Below are positions 3,599 to 7,527 of a stretch of DNA of 27,468 nucleotides, one piece after another. A model generated the notes under the pieces. That model had not been told where the DNA came from, ran no database searches, and worked only from the letters and a program-made list of their open reading frames with translations. The stretch's first letter is position 1; each line of letters starts with the position of its first letter. The DNA is from a virus. The position numbers and the translations under genes are program-made. The stretch spans positions 1 to 27,468 of the IMG/VR virus record IMGVR_UViG_3300047564_000563; one strand, written 5' to 3'.

Positions 3599-3603
3599 CT
3601 GCA

Positions 3604-3703
3604 CGTTCATCCACTTTTGTGGACGGAAGTAAGCCGACGCGGAACGGATCGTTCATTCGCTATTTGCAAATAGCGAACGCAAACGCCGACTGAAGGAACG
3701 CTC
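3604..3703 (+). promoter_or_regulatory. Glutamine-riboswitch-like leader (glnA / Downstream-peptide class)
   Basis: The leader carries the conserved pieces of the glnA/Downstream-peptide RNA family known from cyanobacteria and cyanophages. These are CGTTCATCC (3604-3612), a short hairpin TCCAC/GTGGA (3610-3614 with 3619-3623), the core GGACGGAAGTAAG (3621-3633), and the 3' element GAAGGAACGC (3692-3701), whose GAACG pairs with the first CGTTC. The middle holds an insert: a GAACG/CGTTC hairpin (3642-3654) and a perfect 22-nt palindrome (3656-3677). Family members sense L-glutamine. Here it precedes a microprotein with a good Shine-Dalgarno. No U-tract terminator follows, so control of translation initiation is the simpler model. 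The family call rests on recalled consensus, not on a covariance search. Confidence 0.7.
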
Positions 3704-3731
3704 TTTAGCCTAAAAATTAAGGAGAACCCTA

Positions 3732-3890
3732 ATGTCACAAGCAACCTACAGAGGTTGTCAGTATAATACTGATACCCCTAAAGAAGAATATCGTAAGTGG
3801 TATTCGCAGACACATGCACCAGCACATCCACAGAATACTTATCGTGGTGTTGCATACCGTCCCTGCAAGAATCAGGAGGTAGCACAATGA
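3732..3890 (+). CDS. DUF4278-like YRGxxY microprotein under riboswitch control
   Basis: A 52-aa protein with two copies of a Thr-Tyr-Arg-Gly motif: TYRGCQY near the N-terminus and TYRGVAYRPC near the C-terminus, separated by a polar His/Pro/Gln-rich linker. The TYRGxxY pattern is typical of the small cyanobacterial and cyanophage DUF4278 family. AAGGAG (3719-3724) lies 7 nt before the ATG. The gene directly follows the glutamine-riboswitch-like leader, matching the arrangement for which the Downstream-peptide RNA class was named. It may be a small regulator of host nitrogen metabolism, by analogy with host glutamine-synthetase inactivating factors; that role is inference. Two cysteines (CQY, PCK) are notable. 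Confidence 0.8.
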   Translation: MSQATYRGCQYNTDTPKEEYRKWYSQTHAPAHPQNTYRGVAYRPCKNQEVAQ

Positions 3891-3973
3891 ACTGGTTAGA
3901 TGTAATTCGTAAACAAATTAAAAAGCAAAAGAGACTCCAAGAAGCACAATACTACATTGCAACTCTAGGATGA
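3887..3973 (+). CDS. 28-aa basic helical microprotein
   Basis: MNWLDVIRKQIKKQKRLQEA then QYYIATLG. This is a strongly basic amphipathic helix. It overlaps the DUF4278-like gene by ATGA (3887-3890), with AGGAGGT 10 nt upstream inside that gene, so it has its own ribosome site. It is probably co-regulated by the riboswitch-like leader. Function unknown. Confidence 0.5.
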   Translation: MNWLDVIRKQIKKQKRLQEAQYYIATLG

Positions 3974-4122
3974 AATTATTGGTTCAGATTCTTGTTCTTG
4001 CTAGGATCATTACAAATGATGGTCTATTTACAGAGCAAAGAAGATTTCCTATAAAAAAACAACCCCCCGAAATTCGGAGGGTTGAACGAAGAAAAGGAAA
4101 GAAACATTTCAAGGAGGGGTAA
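3970..4122 (+). CDS. Possible 50-aa basic protein reading into the terminator
   Basis: Starts MKLLVQILVLARIITNDGLF and becomes highly basic (RRVERRKGKKHF). It overlaps the previous stop by ATGA. The 3' half runs through the minus-strand terminator hairpin, and the TAA stop at 4120-4122 sits in the GUAA loop of the plus-strand terminator. Real coding or a chance extension cannot be decided here. Confidence 0.35.
   Translation: MKLLVQILVLARIITNDGLFTEQRRFPIKKQPPEIRRVERRKGKKHFKEG
4051..4084 (-). terminator. Intrinsic terminator of the replisome operon (minus strand)
   Basis: The stem pairs 4060-4071 with 4073-4084 and is followed on the minus strand by seven U (4053-4059). One position is G·U in minus-strand RNA but A·C in plus-strand RNA, so the structure is better on the minus strand. 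It ends transcripts from regA. Confidence 0.8.
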
Positions 4123-4134
4123 CCCTCCTTTTTT
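4111..4134 (+). terminator. Intrinsic terminator of the microprotein cassette (plus strand)
   Basis: The perfect 8-bp stem AAGGAGGG/CCCTCCTT (4111-4118 with 4123-4130) is closed by a GUAA tetraloop and followed by four more T (4131-4134). It ends the plus-strand unit 27 bp beyond the minus-strand terminator, and the two units converge here. Confidence 0.85.
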
Positions 4135-4555
4135 ATGCTTCAACTTTTTTCTTGCCAATATTATACTTACTTTCCAGAGTCCATTCTCCCTTATCTTTAT
4201 AAGCAAGAACTTTAATTTGACTGAGTGGTGCTGCATCTTCAACTCTGGATGCATCAACAATTGTGATCAGTCCCCAGTCGGAGAGAAGTTGTGCAATACG
4301 GTTGCGACGTTGCACGTCGTTTACAAACAGGTTTGCTTTCTTACCATCAAGTGCAAACAGTTCTTTAAAGTGTACAATATAGTACTTGCCCTGTTTATGC
4401 AAAATGTGGCAAGACTGATAGATCTTTTTCTCTTTGCGAGATGCTACACCAATTCTAGTGAGAGTTTCTCGTACTTTCAAAAAATCATCAGGTTCTTTCA
4501 GGACTACTTCAACCATTTGATCCTGAGACCAGTTATACTCTAGTTGGTCACTCAT
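4133..4555 (-). CDS. regA: RegA translational repressor
   Basis: A 140-aa RNA-binding repressor. In T4, RegA binds around the start codons of early mRNAs, including the clamp-loader genes. Match to T4 RegA is clear: EPDDFLKVRETLTRIGVAS, then YQSCHILHKQGKYYIVHFKE, RRNRIAQLLSDWGLITIV, and GEWTLESKYNIG near the C-terminus. It is last in the replisome operon, its ATG overlapping the gp62 TGA (ATGA). Its TAA lies in the T-tract of the opposing terminator. It carries a short extra Lys-rich tail (KKKVEA) and about 10 extra N-terminal residues relative to T4. Confidence 0.96.
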   Translation of the reverse strand: MSDQLEYNWSQDQMVEVVLKEPDDFLKVRETLTRIGVASRKEKKIYQSCHILHKQGKYYIVHFKELFALDGKKANLFVNDVQRRNRIAQLLSDWGLITIVDASRVEDAAPLSQIKVLAYKDKGEWTLESKYNIGKKKVEA

Positions 4556-4932: not shown

Positions 4933-5075
4933 TATTTAAATACCGCAGTAACACCAACAACTTTAGCACCAGGATTTCTTGCAATTGCAACTTCCTTTGC
5001 ATTTTTATAGTCTGTTGCAATCACTTCTTCCTTAAAAACCGTTCCGGCTTTGTATAAAGTCACTTCACATTTCAT
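4932..5075 (-). CDS. Conserved-looking 47-aa protein in replisome operon
   Basis: MKCEVTLYKAGTVFKEEVIA then a segment containing DYKNAKEVAIARNPGAKVVG. It looks like a compact beta-beta-alpha-beta unit with a 'pattern-of-change' DYxxAKEVAxARNP motif that I associate with small cyanophage hypotheticals. Both ends overlap neighbours (ATGA with the glycosyltransferase gene, TAATG with gp62), which supports translation. No function can be assigned. Confidence 0.75.
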   Translation of the reverse strand: MKCEVTLYKAGTVFKEEVIATDYKNAKEVAIARNPGAKVVGVTAVFK

Positions 5076-6415
5076 TTTTCAATCCAGCAATAAGTAGGTG
5101 ATTCATCCATTGTATCATAGATGTTGGGGTGTTTAATTAATGCACGACGATAAGGACCAAATTTCATACCACGGCCCCAACCAAGAGTATCTCTGAACAA
5201 CTCACGTTTGGTGATCTGTCCTTTCTCTTTGATTGTTGCGATAAGTTTATCTGTAACTGGAGTATTGGTAGTCTTCAGTTTACTGATCAAATAATCAATG
5301 TAGTTACTCATGTTGATAATCTCATCTGCATAAATGAGATTGGTTCTCATGTGAGTTTGTGATTGTTTGACCTTTTCATTCCTGTAAACTTCATCATCAA
5401 GATACTTGTTTAGAAGTTCAATGGCTTGTGGATAATCCGAAAAGAAATCTGCAACAGGATTTAGTTCGTGGTAATAAGGAGCATCATACATGATGAATGG
5501 ACAACCATTCATAATACCATCAGTTGTAGATACACTCCACCCACCATAAACTTGTCTTGGAGAAAATCCAACTCTGCAGGTTTGAAGTTTCCTGTAGTAC
5601 CGTTCTTTATTATACTTAGAGATATCAATCCAGGAGTGTGGAGATGTATCAAGCAAAGGAATCCATACATCAAAATCCTGACGTTCTTCTCTCAGTTTCT
5701 CAATAACCTTCATGAAATTACTGAAGTCTTTATATGCATCTGGACGATGATTAAAGACGATAGTTTTATTCGTTGACTTCAGAGGTGGAACAATATCATA
5801 TTCCTGAACTCCGAGATGTTGAACTTCAAGTACAGCGTTCAGTTTAAATACTTTATCAACACTGAAAGTTTTAAGAGCTTGATCAATCACCAGATCCTTT
5901 TGATGTTGAGTATTCAGATAACACTTCTCCATCTCTAGAACACCCAGAATGTTTTGATCAAAACTTGGAACAGACCAAGACACTACATTGTCCAGATCAA
6001 ACCAATGGCAATACCCAAAGTACAAAGGAGTGTGGTGAGTAATATTACCGATGACATTTTTGACTGCATGAGTATGTTCTGGTAGATGGCTGAAAACTAG
6101 ATCAATATCAATGTCATGTCCTACAATCTCCTGAAACCTCTTCACATCAAAGTGAGATCTCATCGTTGGAGGATAAGTAGGATACTCCATGAGGTACTGA
6201 TGAGTATTTGGAAAGTCAAGCATCTCCAAAAACTCTGGGAGAATCAGATAGAAATACAAATCAGTTCTAATTTTATTCAACTCCGTGATCATGTTAGTGA
6301 TCACCTGGATATAACTATCCTTAGTAAGATCCTTGGAATATGTAATGTTCGGATAGACTAGAATCCTGATAGTTTTCTCGTATTGAGTATCGCGTAGAAA
6401 TTTTGTAAGAGTCAT
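5072..6415 (-). CDS. GT-B-like glycosyltransferase with C-terminal winged-helix domain
   Basis: 447 aa. Residues 15-200 look like an N-terminal Rossmann half (RILVYPNITYSKD, DLYFYLILPEFLEML, DLVFSHLPEH). Residues 215-370 look like the sugar-nucleotide-binding half (TIVFNHRPDAYKDF, DVWIPLLD, YYRKLQTCRVGFSPRQVYGG, WSVSTTDGIMNGCPFIMYD), as in family-1-type GT-B enzymes. Residues 385-447 (ATIKEKGQITKRELFRDTLG, then RALIKHPNIYDT) resemble a winged helix, suggesting DNA binding. A DNA-modifying glucosyltransferase role is therefore attractive; transfer to protein or lipid is the alternative. It is linked by ATGA to the DruA-like gene upstream and to the 47-aa gene downstream, inside the replisome operon. 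It does not visibly align with T4 alpha- or beta-glucosyltransferase. Confidence 0.7.
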   Translation of the reverse strand: MTLTKFLRDTQYEKTIRILVYPNITYSKDLTKDSYIQVITNMITELNKIRTDLYFYLILPEFLEMLDFPNTHQYLMEYPTYPPTMRSHFDVKRFQEIVGHDIDIDLVFSHLPEHTHAVKNVIGNITHHTPLYFGYCHWFDLDNVVSWSVPSFDQNILGVLEMEKCYLNTQHQKDLVIDQALKTFSVDKVFKLNAVLEVQHLGVQEYDIVPPLKSTNKTIVFNHRPDAYKDFSNFMKVIEKLREERQDFDVWIPLLDTSPHSWIDISKYNKERYYRKLQTCRVGFSPRQVYGGWSVSTTDGIMNGCPFIMYDAPYYHELNPVADFFSDYPQAIELLNKYLDDEVYRNEKVKQSQTHMRTNLIYADEIINMSNYIDYLISKLKTTNTPVTDKLIATIKEKGQITKRELFRDTLGWGRGMKFGPYRRALIKHPNIYDTMDESPTYCWIEK

Positions 6416-7527
6416 CGGATAATATCAATTGTGTTCATAGTATTAGCGTTCCAAACTTCAAGATTAGTTCGGACAGACTTCTCTTCCTTCAGTCTCTCAT
6501 AACGATTAGAGGCTTTCTTCTTCCACCACTTCACCATGTTCTCAAAATAGAACTTGTCAAAGTTTTCTTTGTTTGGAATCAGGGTTTCTGTGTTTCCGAG
6601 AAGAACATCTTTGACATTCTCATATCCATAGTCGGACATATAGAAACGTTTCTTAGTTGTGATATCTTCCCGTGACTTGATAAAGTTAACAAACTCCTTG
6701 TGCATCTCTGGATGATTTTCTTTCAGAGAGTTCTTGATGATGGAAATCATCTTTGTTTGAATCTTGAGTTTGCGACTAGAAGCACCTTTGTGTACTAGTT
6801 GTTCACCATCGTTCTTCTGAATGAACCACTTGTGAAGATCATGATAGATGAAATCTGGAAGGGTCAAAAGAAACTTAGATTCAGTATCTCCACGATAACG
6901 TAGAAATGGTTTCATACCATCATACTGACTGGTTCCTTTGATGTTTCCATACAGAGAAGTAGTTTCAAACAAACACATTTCTGTGTCATACTTCTTATTT
7001 AGCATCTCACGAACTTCATGAGAACAACAAACCAACGACAGAAGTTTACCACCGAGATAGTTAAAACCAAACGGTTGCACGGGGACAATAATAAACCCCA
7101 TGATGGCCCTACGATTGAAGATGGTGAGGTCAGGCGTCCCTCCAAGCCAGTCGTTGCGGGGTTTGGAGTTGATGGTGGGAGAACCCAGCTTAATGAACCC
7201 CACAGCGGTCCCTGTGGTGGTCTCCTGGAGGATTAGCTTCTGTTCCTTCCCAGGCGCCTCCTCATAGGTAAATGATGCAGTCATTTCCAGAAGAGTATTG
7301 AAGGTAGTATGATCTGGAGTGACGATACGAAAATTCATATCTTCGGGATGCATATCATACTTCTGGAACATATCATCTTCCATGGAAAGACCAAACAACG
7401 GAGTTGGAATTTCTTTGATACGTTCAATCTTTTTCATCCGAAAATAATCATCAATACGGTTGATAGAACCGTAAGCCTCCTTGATCTTTTCGTATGCATA
7501 CAGAGTGTCTTCTGGAGATAAGATCAT
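6412..7527 (-). CDS. DruA/DUF4338-like protein with GNAT-type core
   Basis: 371 aa. The middle resembles the DUF4338 family (Druantia DruA) and Mom-like GNAT folds: TAVGFIKLGSP at about 107-117, PRNDWLGG 123-130, RRAIMGFIIVPVQPFGFNYL 139-158, GGKLLSLVCCSHEVREML 159-176, and MCLFETTSLYG 184-194 followed by GTSQYDGMKPFLRYRG. In that reading PFGFNYLGGKLL is the acyl-CoA-loop region. The C-terminal third (220-371) is basic and helical and unassigned. It is coupled by ATGA to genes on both sides. A DNA- or nucleotide-modifying activity is plausible but not shown. A patch of unusually high GC and GC-ending codons (about 7078-7260) covers the core. The family call is from memory of motifs and only moderately sure. 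Confidence 0.55.
   Translation of the reverse strand: MILSPEDTLYAYEKIKEAYGSINRIDDYFRMKKIERIKEIPTPLFGLSMEDDMFQKYDMHPEDMNFRIVTPDHTTFNTLLEMTASFTYEEAPGKEQKLILQETTTGTAVGFIKLGSPTINSKPRNDWLGGTPDLTIFNRRAIMGFIIVPVQPFGFNYLGGKLLSLVCCSHEVREMLNKKYDTEMCLFETTSLYGNIKGTSQYDGMKPFLRYRGDTESKFLLTLPDFIYHDLHKWFIQKNDGEQLVHKGASSRKLKIQTKMISIIKNSLKENHPEMHKEFVNFIKSREDITTKKRFYMSDYGYENVKDVLLGNTETLIPNKENFDKFYFENMVKWWKKKASNRYERLKEEKSVRTNLEVWNANTMNTIDIIR

Follow-up and report, generated by a model that had tools for sequence, protein, structure and literature searches.

The window, by which we mean the whole stretch of DNA analysed, is a virus record of 27,468 bases with T4-like genes for the major capsid protein Gp23, the portal protein Gp20, the RegA translational repressor and a clamp-loader subunit. 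Its closest annotated relatives at the leader locus are the Kyanoviridae cyanophages DSL-LC03, S-CREM1 and S-PM2. The leader precedes a 52-amino-acid ORF that matches Pfam DUF4278 (E=1.8e-4; 22.2 bits, slightly under the curated 25.3) and PHROG 5049 (phrog_5049, E=3e-10), and which has a pN/pS of 0.19 among relatives. By these two matches the leader has downstream of it the kind of gene expected for a glutamine-I riboswitch, one related to nitrogen or of the DUF4278 type.

Directly after this gene lies a 28-amino-acid ORF with a match to phrog_545 (3890-3976, plus strand), followed downstream by a terminator-like hairpin at about 4058-4090. We rejected a match to BTnc005 on the minus strand (4058-4170), which is sub-threshold (23.2 vs 174.8 bits) and overlies this hairpin. 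Near the clamp-loader gene, a protein at 6412-7527 on the minus strand matches DruA of the Druantia defence system (Pfam, E=2e-9; phrog_19197). It adjoins a 447-amino-acid protein at 5072-6415, on the same strand, that has no family match.

Sequence motifs of the leader

The original prediction described a doubled leader of the glnA/Downstream-peptide class, and the letters are as it gave them. The series CGTTCAT..GCCGAC..GGAACG occurs at 3604-3646 (unit 1) and again at 3650-3700 (unit 2). The two copies of CGTTC begin at 3604 and 3650, the three of GAACG at 3642, 3675 and 3696. CGGAAGTAAG is found in unit 1 and GAAGGAACGC in unit 2. The perfect 22-nt palindrome at 3656-3677, TTCGCTATTTGCAAATAGCGAA, forms the P2 hairpin of the inner aptamer described below (P2b).

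As to the class, the glnA part is supported. The Rfam glnA model (RF01739) matches both units and the label is far beyond chance: a cmscan of the whole window gives one match per unit (33.8 bits, E=7e-4 and 28.0 bits, E=0.03), both under the cut-off of 35 bits, and another search of this record puts unit 1, at 3602-3650, above it with 36.1 bits (E=4e-8). The Downstream-peptide part is unsupported by score, the glutamine-II model (RF01704) reaching 20.7 bits (E=0.41) against a cut-off of 33. Kindred elements are found in more than 120 viral contigs, and the window element is identical to that of locus L172. The parts of the element are listed in Table 1.

Table 1. Parts of the leader element and the downstream gene, with the basis for each assignment.
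Feature	Position	Strand	Basis
Outer P1, 5′ strand CGUUC	3604-3608	+	pairs with 3696-3700; nested linchpin covariation, pair-5 double changes
P2a hairpin of outer aptamer, UCCAC UUUU GUGGA	3610-3623	+	stem covaries among relatives
Outer junction CGG and loop-E strand AAGUA; G3626 is linchpin nt23	3624-3631	+	RF01739 consensus; linchpin
P3, 5′ strand AGCCGACG	3632-3639	+	pairs with 3684-3691, two C.A oppositions; P3 covariation
Inner P1′ hairpin: GAACG 3642-3646, loop GAU (G3647 is nt60′), CGUUC 3650-3654	3642-3654	+	spacing, inner linchpin
P2b hairpin of inner circularly permuted aptamer	3656-3677	+	P2b covariation; palindrome
Inner junction CGCAAA; C3680 is linchpin nt23′	3678-3683	+	inner linchpin covariation
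P3, 3′ strand CGCCGACU	3684-3691	+	P3 covariation, replaced versions in relatives
Loop-E 3′ strand GAA and the G before outer P1	3692-3695	+	RF01739 consensus; from unit 2 only
Outer P1, 3′ strand GAACG and C3701 (linchpin nt60; first anti-Shine-Dalgarno base)	3696-3701	+	linchpin covariation, Shine-Dalgarno survey
Anti-Shine-Dalgarno strand CUCUUUAG	3701-3708	+	pairs with 3717-3724, probability ~0.95 for most pairs
Shine-Dalgarno strand UUAAGGAG	3717-3724	+	sequence, folding, survey of relatives
Regulated gene, 52-aa DUF4278-like protein (MSQATYRGCQYNTDTP...)	3732-3890	+	Pfam and PHROG matches, pN/pS

Covariation between the two units

In the glutamine-I aptamer, a long-range pair between nt23 and nt60 closes the site (PMC6698751). 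The residues at these positions in the window are G and G in unit 1 and C and C in unit 2, so that neither unit can form the pair alone; pairing across the units makes both an outer (G3626-C3701) and an inner (C3680-G3647) linchpin. We take the numbering 23/60 of this linchpin pair to be that of the 5DDP structure.

Our main comparison set consists of 201 distinct relatives. Search patterns fixed both P1 and P1′ as CGUUC/GAACG in all of them, and these stems are therefore beyond the covariation test in this set. The outer linchpin, nt23 of unit 1 with nt60 of unit 2, is paired in 201 of 201 relatives (105 G-C and 96 C-G), against a mean of 100.7 and a maximum of 127 in the shuffle control; the linchpin class has changed only about eight times on a weakly resolved tree, for which a gene of 150 nt was used, and the contrasts that fall on branches with good support number three. 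The partners of a tandem arrangement are each paired in 98 relatives and fail in 103.

The end pair of P3 (X-Y) is U-A in 155 of these relatives, A-U in 24, G-C in 20 and U.G in 2 (shuffle maximum 143). It has undergone at least 34 changes by parsimony on the tree of the downstream gene, and 12-13 of 13 independent contrasts are concordant (p ~5e-4). This pair covaries between the units and not within a unit. In some relatives the whole of P3 is swapped, for AGUCG/CGACU (a perfect 5-bp stem), AGUCA/UGACU, AGUCU/AGACU or GGACGG/CCGCCY, and 202 of the 219 pairs in the replaced versions are standard; P3 pair 1 is C-G in S-SRM01 and G-C in S-B68. Most relatives have C.A at two of the eight P3 oppositions.

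Since P1 and P1′ have the same sequence, the topology of P1 rests on the linchpins, two P1 variants and spacing. The variants come from a protein-anchored set (80 loci found via the protein alone, independently of the RNA patterns) and a targeted scan: in two contigs (L236/L418 and L415), pair 5 of outer P1 has changed from C-G to U-A on both strands (CGUUU/AAACG), yet the inner stem stays CGUUC/GAACG. A scan of IMG/VR contigs for variants of inner P1′ gave none, while the parallel scan for outer variants gave these two real cases. The segment between GAACG and CGUUC measures 3-6 nt in all relatives but one. Counted by eye, about 53 of the 80 protein-anchored loci are nested, 26 have a canonical single aptamer and one is truncated. 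In the single aptamers, which lie ahead of the same gene, P3 is a hairpin, for instance GGGAAACC.

When 35 compact elements are aligned and read as nested, 78 cells have changed on both sides, compared to at most five in controls with slid partners. The linchpin columns of this alignment are paired in 35 of 35 elements when nested versus 19 of 35 in tandem, and P2b shows changes on both sides in four of five pairs tested. For 3602-3702, the minimum free energy fold has the nested pairing in P1, P1′ and P2b. The nested structure scores -23.8 kcal/mol and the tandem one -19.4, with no preference for P3 from thermodynamics alone.

Finally, the loop-E strands are divided between the units: unit 1 has AGUA without GAA and unit 2 has GAA without AGUA. 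Two independent tandem glnA aptamers, each with its own P1 (3604/3642 and 3650/3696) and together giving a steeper, pseudo-cooperative response, would fit the two separate RF01739 matches and sequences that are compatible with both P1 stems, and 157 doublet glutamine riboswitches are counted as tandem in the literature (PMC9481103). Each unit would then be complete, with its own loop E and its own nt23-nt60 pair, but each loop E in the window is incomplete and the linchpins would be G.G and C.C, and tandem linchpins fail in more than half of the relatives. Moreover, X-Y covaries across units only, and nested pairing alone accounts for the compensatory changes in outer P1 of L236 and L415. We consider this arrangement very unlikely, and on the linchpin, the loop-E split and the P3 covariation we rejected both independent and decayed tandems. 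A decayed tandem aptamer, one of two origins offered in the original prediction, is contradicted because both units are strongly conserved and hold complementary halves of loop E, each having what the other lacks.

If each unit closed its own P1 and the two kissed via P3, the resulting inter-unit pseudoknot would account for the P3 covariation without nesting. It would, however, leave the linchpin covariation and the two outer-P1 double changes unexplained, and the 3-6 nt between GAACG and CGUUC suit a hairpin loop. We regard this pseudoknot as very unlikely.

Covariation shows that the two units are nested, and the three-dimensional fold is predicted from it. Read in this way, the outer aptamer has all parts of glutamine-I (P1 CGUUC/GAACG, a P2 hairpin, loop E AGUA/GAA and P3) as well as the long-range Watson-Crick pair. 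The outer site would be a standard glnA three-way junction, whose P3 arm would be capped not by a tetraloop but by a second three-way junction of like parts (P1′, P2b, CGCAAA and the inner linchpin). This inner site would be a circular permutation of the aptamer, with P1 closed by a short loop and P3 as the open end. The second suggestion of the original prediction, one aptamer with a duplicated insert, comes near to this result, the insert being a second, circularly permuted aptamer that sits in P3 of the first. In the simplest reading, the double form arose from a single aptamer by exchange of the P3 tetraloop for that second aptamer. We conclude that 3604-3701 is very probably one interlocked, two-headed glutamine-I aptamer, which would work by the glutamine ON switch proposed below.

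Both heads need not bind glutamine. The inner aptamer could be a structural plug or 'ghost' that leaves binding to the outer one and, in relatives, offers a docking place for loop genes. We find this variant of the nested form rather unlikely: conservation is high in the core of the inner site, 0 IMG/VR contigs have another first base in the inner GAACG in this context against more than 120 with the parent pattern, and the inner linchpin is compensated from C-G to G-C in two relatives. In its favour, the inner site is without loop E, the linchpin is unpaired in 7 of 201 relatives at the inner site versus 0 of 201 at the outer, and the same gene is also found under canonical single aptamers. 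As a putative glutamine site, the inner head would have an uncertain affinity, given the absent loop E.

Genes in the P2 loops and distribution of the nested form

The window element has P2 loops without ORFs and represents the gene-less version. The P2b loop exceeds 100 nt in 128 of 203 distinct elements, and 127 of these 128 long loops hold an ORF running from an AUG in the P2b stem to a stop in P3, counts that are inflated because one search used that ORF. Of the nested elements in the set found via the DUF4278 protein, about half carry this ORF. Because the stop lies in P3, aptamer nucleotides encode the last residues of the P2b ORF (DAKAD-stop in most). For example, such ORFs are found at L002:3037-3192, L333:864-1031, L335:859-1047 and L336:840-1004, and at about 120 other loci; they match PHROG 504.

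A different ORF occupies the P2a loop in 53 elements (L030, L038, L157, L165, L330 and about 48 more). It starts in the P2a stem and ends in the loop-E strand in 19 of the 53. Its sequences read MTKALLLLAWVPLLS.. or MIELxLLASLL..EHNASHWEMSC.., and some finish with ..IGRK-stop in the loop-E strand.

Purifying selection acts on the loop ORFs (pN/pS 0.21 and 0.30), and several of them are annotated as genes in isolates including S-SSM7, S-SM2, P-RSM6, DSL-LC02 and S-SRM01. The P2 stems that flank them still covary, and their presence has changed 48 and 30 times on the tree. The P2 loops behave as if they were exchangeable slots.

Several elements depart from this pattern. In S-SRM01 (L337, 616-838), where P3 pair 1 is C-G and not A-U, the loop ORF thereby loses its TGA stop and its frame runs on into the anti-Shine-Dalgarno region. 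At L061, 584 nt separate the units and contain a long ORF with some likeness to GIY-YIG homing endonucleases. Seemingly similar ORFs end just upstream of P2b at L299 and L303. We also observed one hairpin, TTCGCTATTYGCRAATAGCGAA, nearly unchanged at 3656-3677 of the window, as P2a of L002 and L045 and in the single aptamers L183-L198. Different phages thus employ it as the P2 of different aptamers, with a sequence conservation beyond the needs of the stem.

Full-length nested matches to our model R1 come from phage records and from one contig of a host assembly. Among host genomes, one of 300 at the family level and one of 291 at the class level gave such a match, the same genome twice, and this contig (G001 contig 3 = L332) appears to be a co-sequenced phage, since at 189,106 bp it is exactly as long as a viral contig in IMG/VR (L100). 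The model R1 search otherwise found the nested form absent from the ~590 cyanobacterial genomes sampled; the larger set was searched with Infernal's stricter filters, so weak nested matches could be missed. The other host matches to model R1 span ~50-70 nt, and those inspected are single aptamers, as are the host RF01739 matches inspected. We therefore rejected the idea that the nested form came from hosts, since its sole full-length match in a host genome is taken as phage and the other inspected matches are single. A further cyanophage nested riboswitch (L331) lies on a contig filed under a Dehalococcoidia MAG, probably a mis-binned phage.

A proposed glutamine switch and its relation to known riboswitches

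In the ligand-free fold predicted for 3604-3740, the Shine-Dalgarno sequence is in a hairpin with 3701-3708 (probability ~0.95), P1′ and P2b are formed and outer P1 is open. The original prediction looked for a switch in mutually exclusive CGUUC/GAACG pairings. As stated this is unsupported, nested pairing being preferred throughout. The exclusive choice that is visible concerns C3701, which is both the linchpin partner of G3626 in the aptamer and the closing base of the Shine-Dalgarno hairpin, paired with G3724. All 104 relatives examined in the G23/C60 class, to which the window belongs, are predicted to have their Shine-Dalgarno sequence paired; the hairpin is less clear in the C23/G60 class. 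ViennaRNA allows the nested fold and the hairpin to coexist, C3701 excepted, and hence the switch would amount to a competition for one pair plus tertiary energy that is outside the model.

These predictions suggest a translational ON switch through the choice of C3701. Without glutamine, the Shine-Dalgarno sequence would be sequestered by the hairpin. Glutamine would steady both junctions via their common P3, and the outer linchpin would pull C3701 off G3724, weakening the hairpin and allowing the DUF4278-like protein to be translated. The two sites would probably be cooperative. The product may act like the N-terminal domain of IF17 or like small regulators of the PirA type, in which case high glutamine would lead the phage to produce a nitrogen regulator of the IF17/PirA type. 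An ON switch agrees with the ON behaviour reported for glutamine-I/-II riboswitches on cyanobacterial DUF4278 genes (PMC6316151).

Many relatives (e.g. L003, L014, L017, L045) have a -10-like box that ends 7-10 nt ahead of P1, so that the transcript may start at P1. Around this box lies an inverted repeat with arms that vary by phage and keep their complementarity (TGTGTTAGTATTAACACA, AGGTCTATAATGACCT, GGTATGCTAACATACC, GGAGTATAATACTCC).

For relatives with loop genes, we tentatively put forward the possibility of a nested, permuted double riboswitch that uses its P2 loops as gene slots in many cyanophages. Folding on glutamine would mask the starts of the loop genes and expose the downstream ribosome site. 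One ligand event would thereby act on three genes, turning the loop genes one way and the downstream gene the other, and the sensor would be unfolded by ribosomes that translate the loop genes. Such reciprocal regulation of the loop genes and the DUF4278 gene is only a hypothesis.

We file the leader as a variant of the glutamine-I riboswitch (glnA, RF01739) with a nested, permuted second aptamer. It shares with this class the outer junction with CGUUC/GAACG P1, P2, CGGAAGUA/GAA loop E, P3 and the nt23-nt60 pair, the position upstream of a DUF4278-like gene and the Shine-Dalgarno hairpin downstream. It differs in that P3 consists of two distant strands and a second, permuted aptamer-like junction replaces the tetraloop. 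In the inner site one finds CGUUCA..CGCA..GGAACGG, a set that is typical of glutamine-II (RF01704), which also controls small DUF4278 proteins. Unlike glutamine-II, the element has no pseudoknot P2, has a permuted strand order and remains below the cut-off of the RF01704 model (20.7 vs 33 bits).

Doublet glutamine riboswitches are common and have been described as independent tandems (Weinberg 2010, PMC2864571; PMC9481103). They too have two recognisable glnA motifs in one leader, whereas the motifs of the window form one nested structure with a common P3. By analogy, the tandem glycine riboswitch also has two homologous aptamers on one expression platform, for which cooperativity would be expected; its aptamers lie side by side, while here a permuted one is inserted in the arm of the other. 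The metE B12 riboswitch of M. tuberculosis has a translated short uORF inside its aptamer (PMC11260477), a precedent for the relatives of the window only, which differ in having two unrelated conserved genes of 50-70 amino acids, one per P2 loop, that start in the P2 stems. The element of S-CREM1 (L001) is of the same kind as that of the window. It was annotated as a single 99-nt glnA RNA with 44.0 bits (PMC9964418), and the available text of that paper describes no nested structure, permutation or regulated gene. In the literature searched we found no naturally nested or circularly permuted aptamers.

At least the doublets that resemble this phage group would need to be read again as one cooperative device with a shared helix. 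The coupling of two ligand sites through a common arm becomes open to a direct test by compensatory mutation, and in relatives nucleotides of the aptamer double as codons. Our results also suggest that cyanophages use glutamine to time a host nitrogen regulator in the course of infection.
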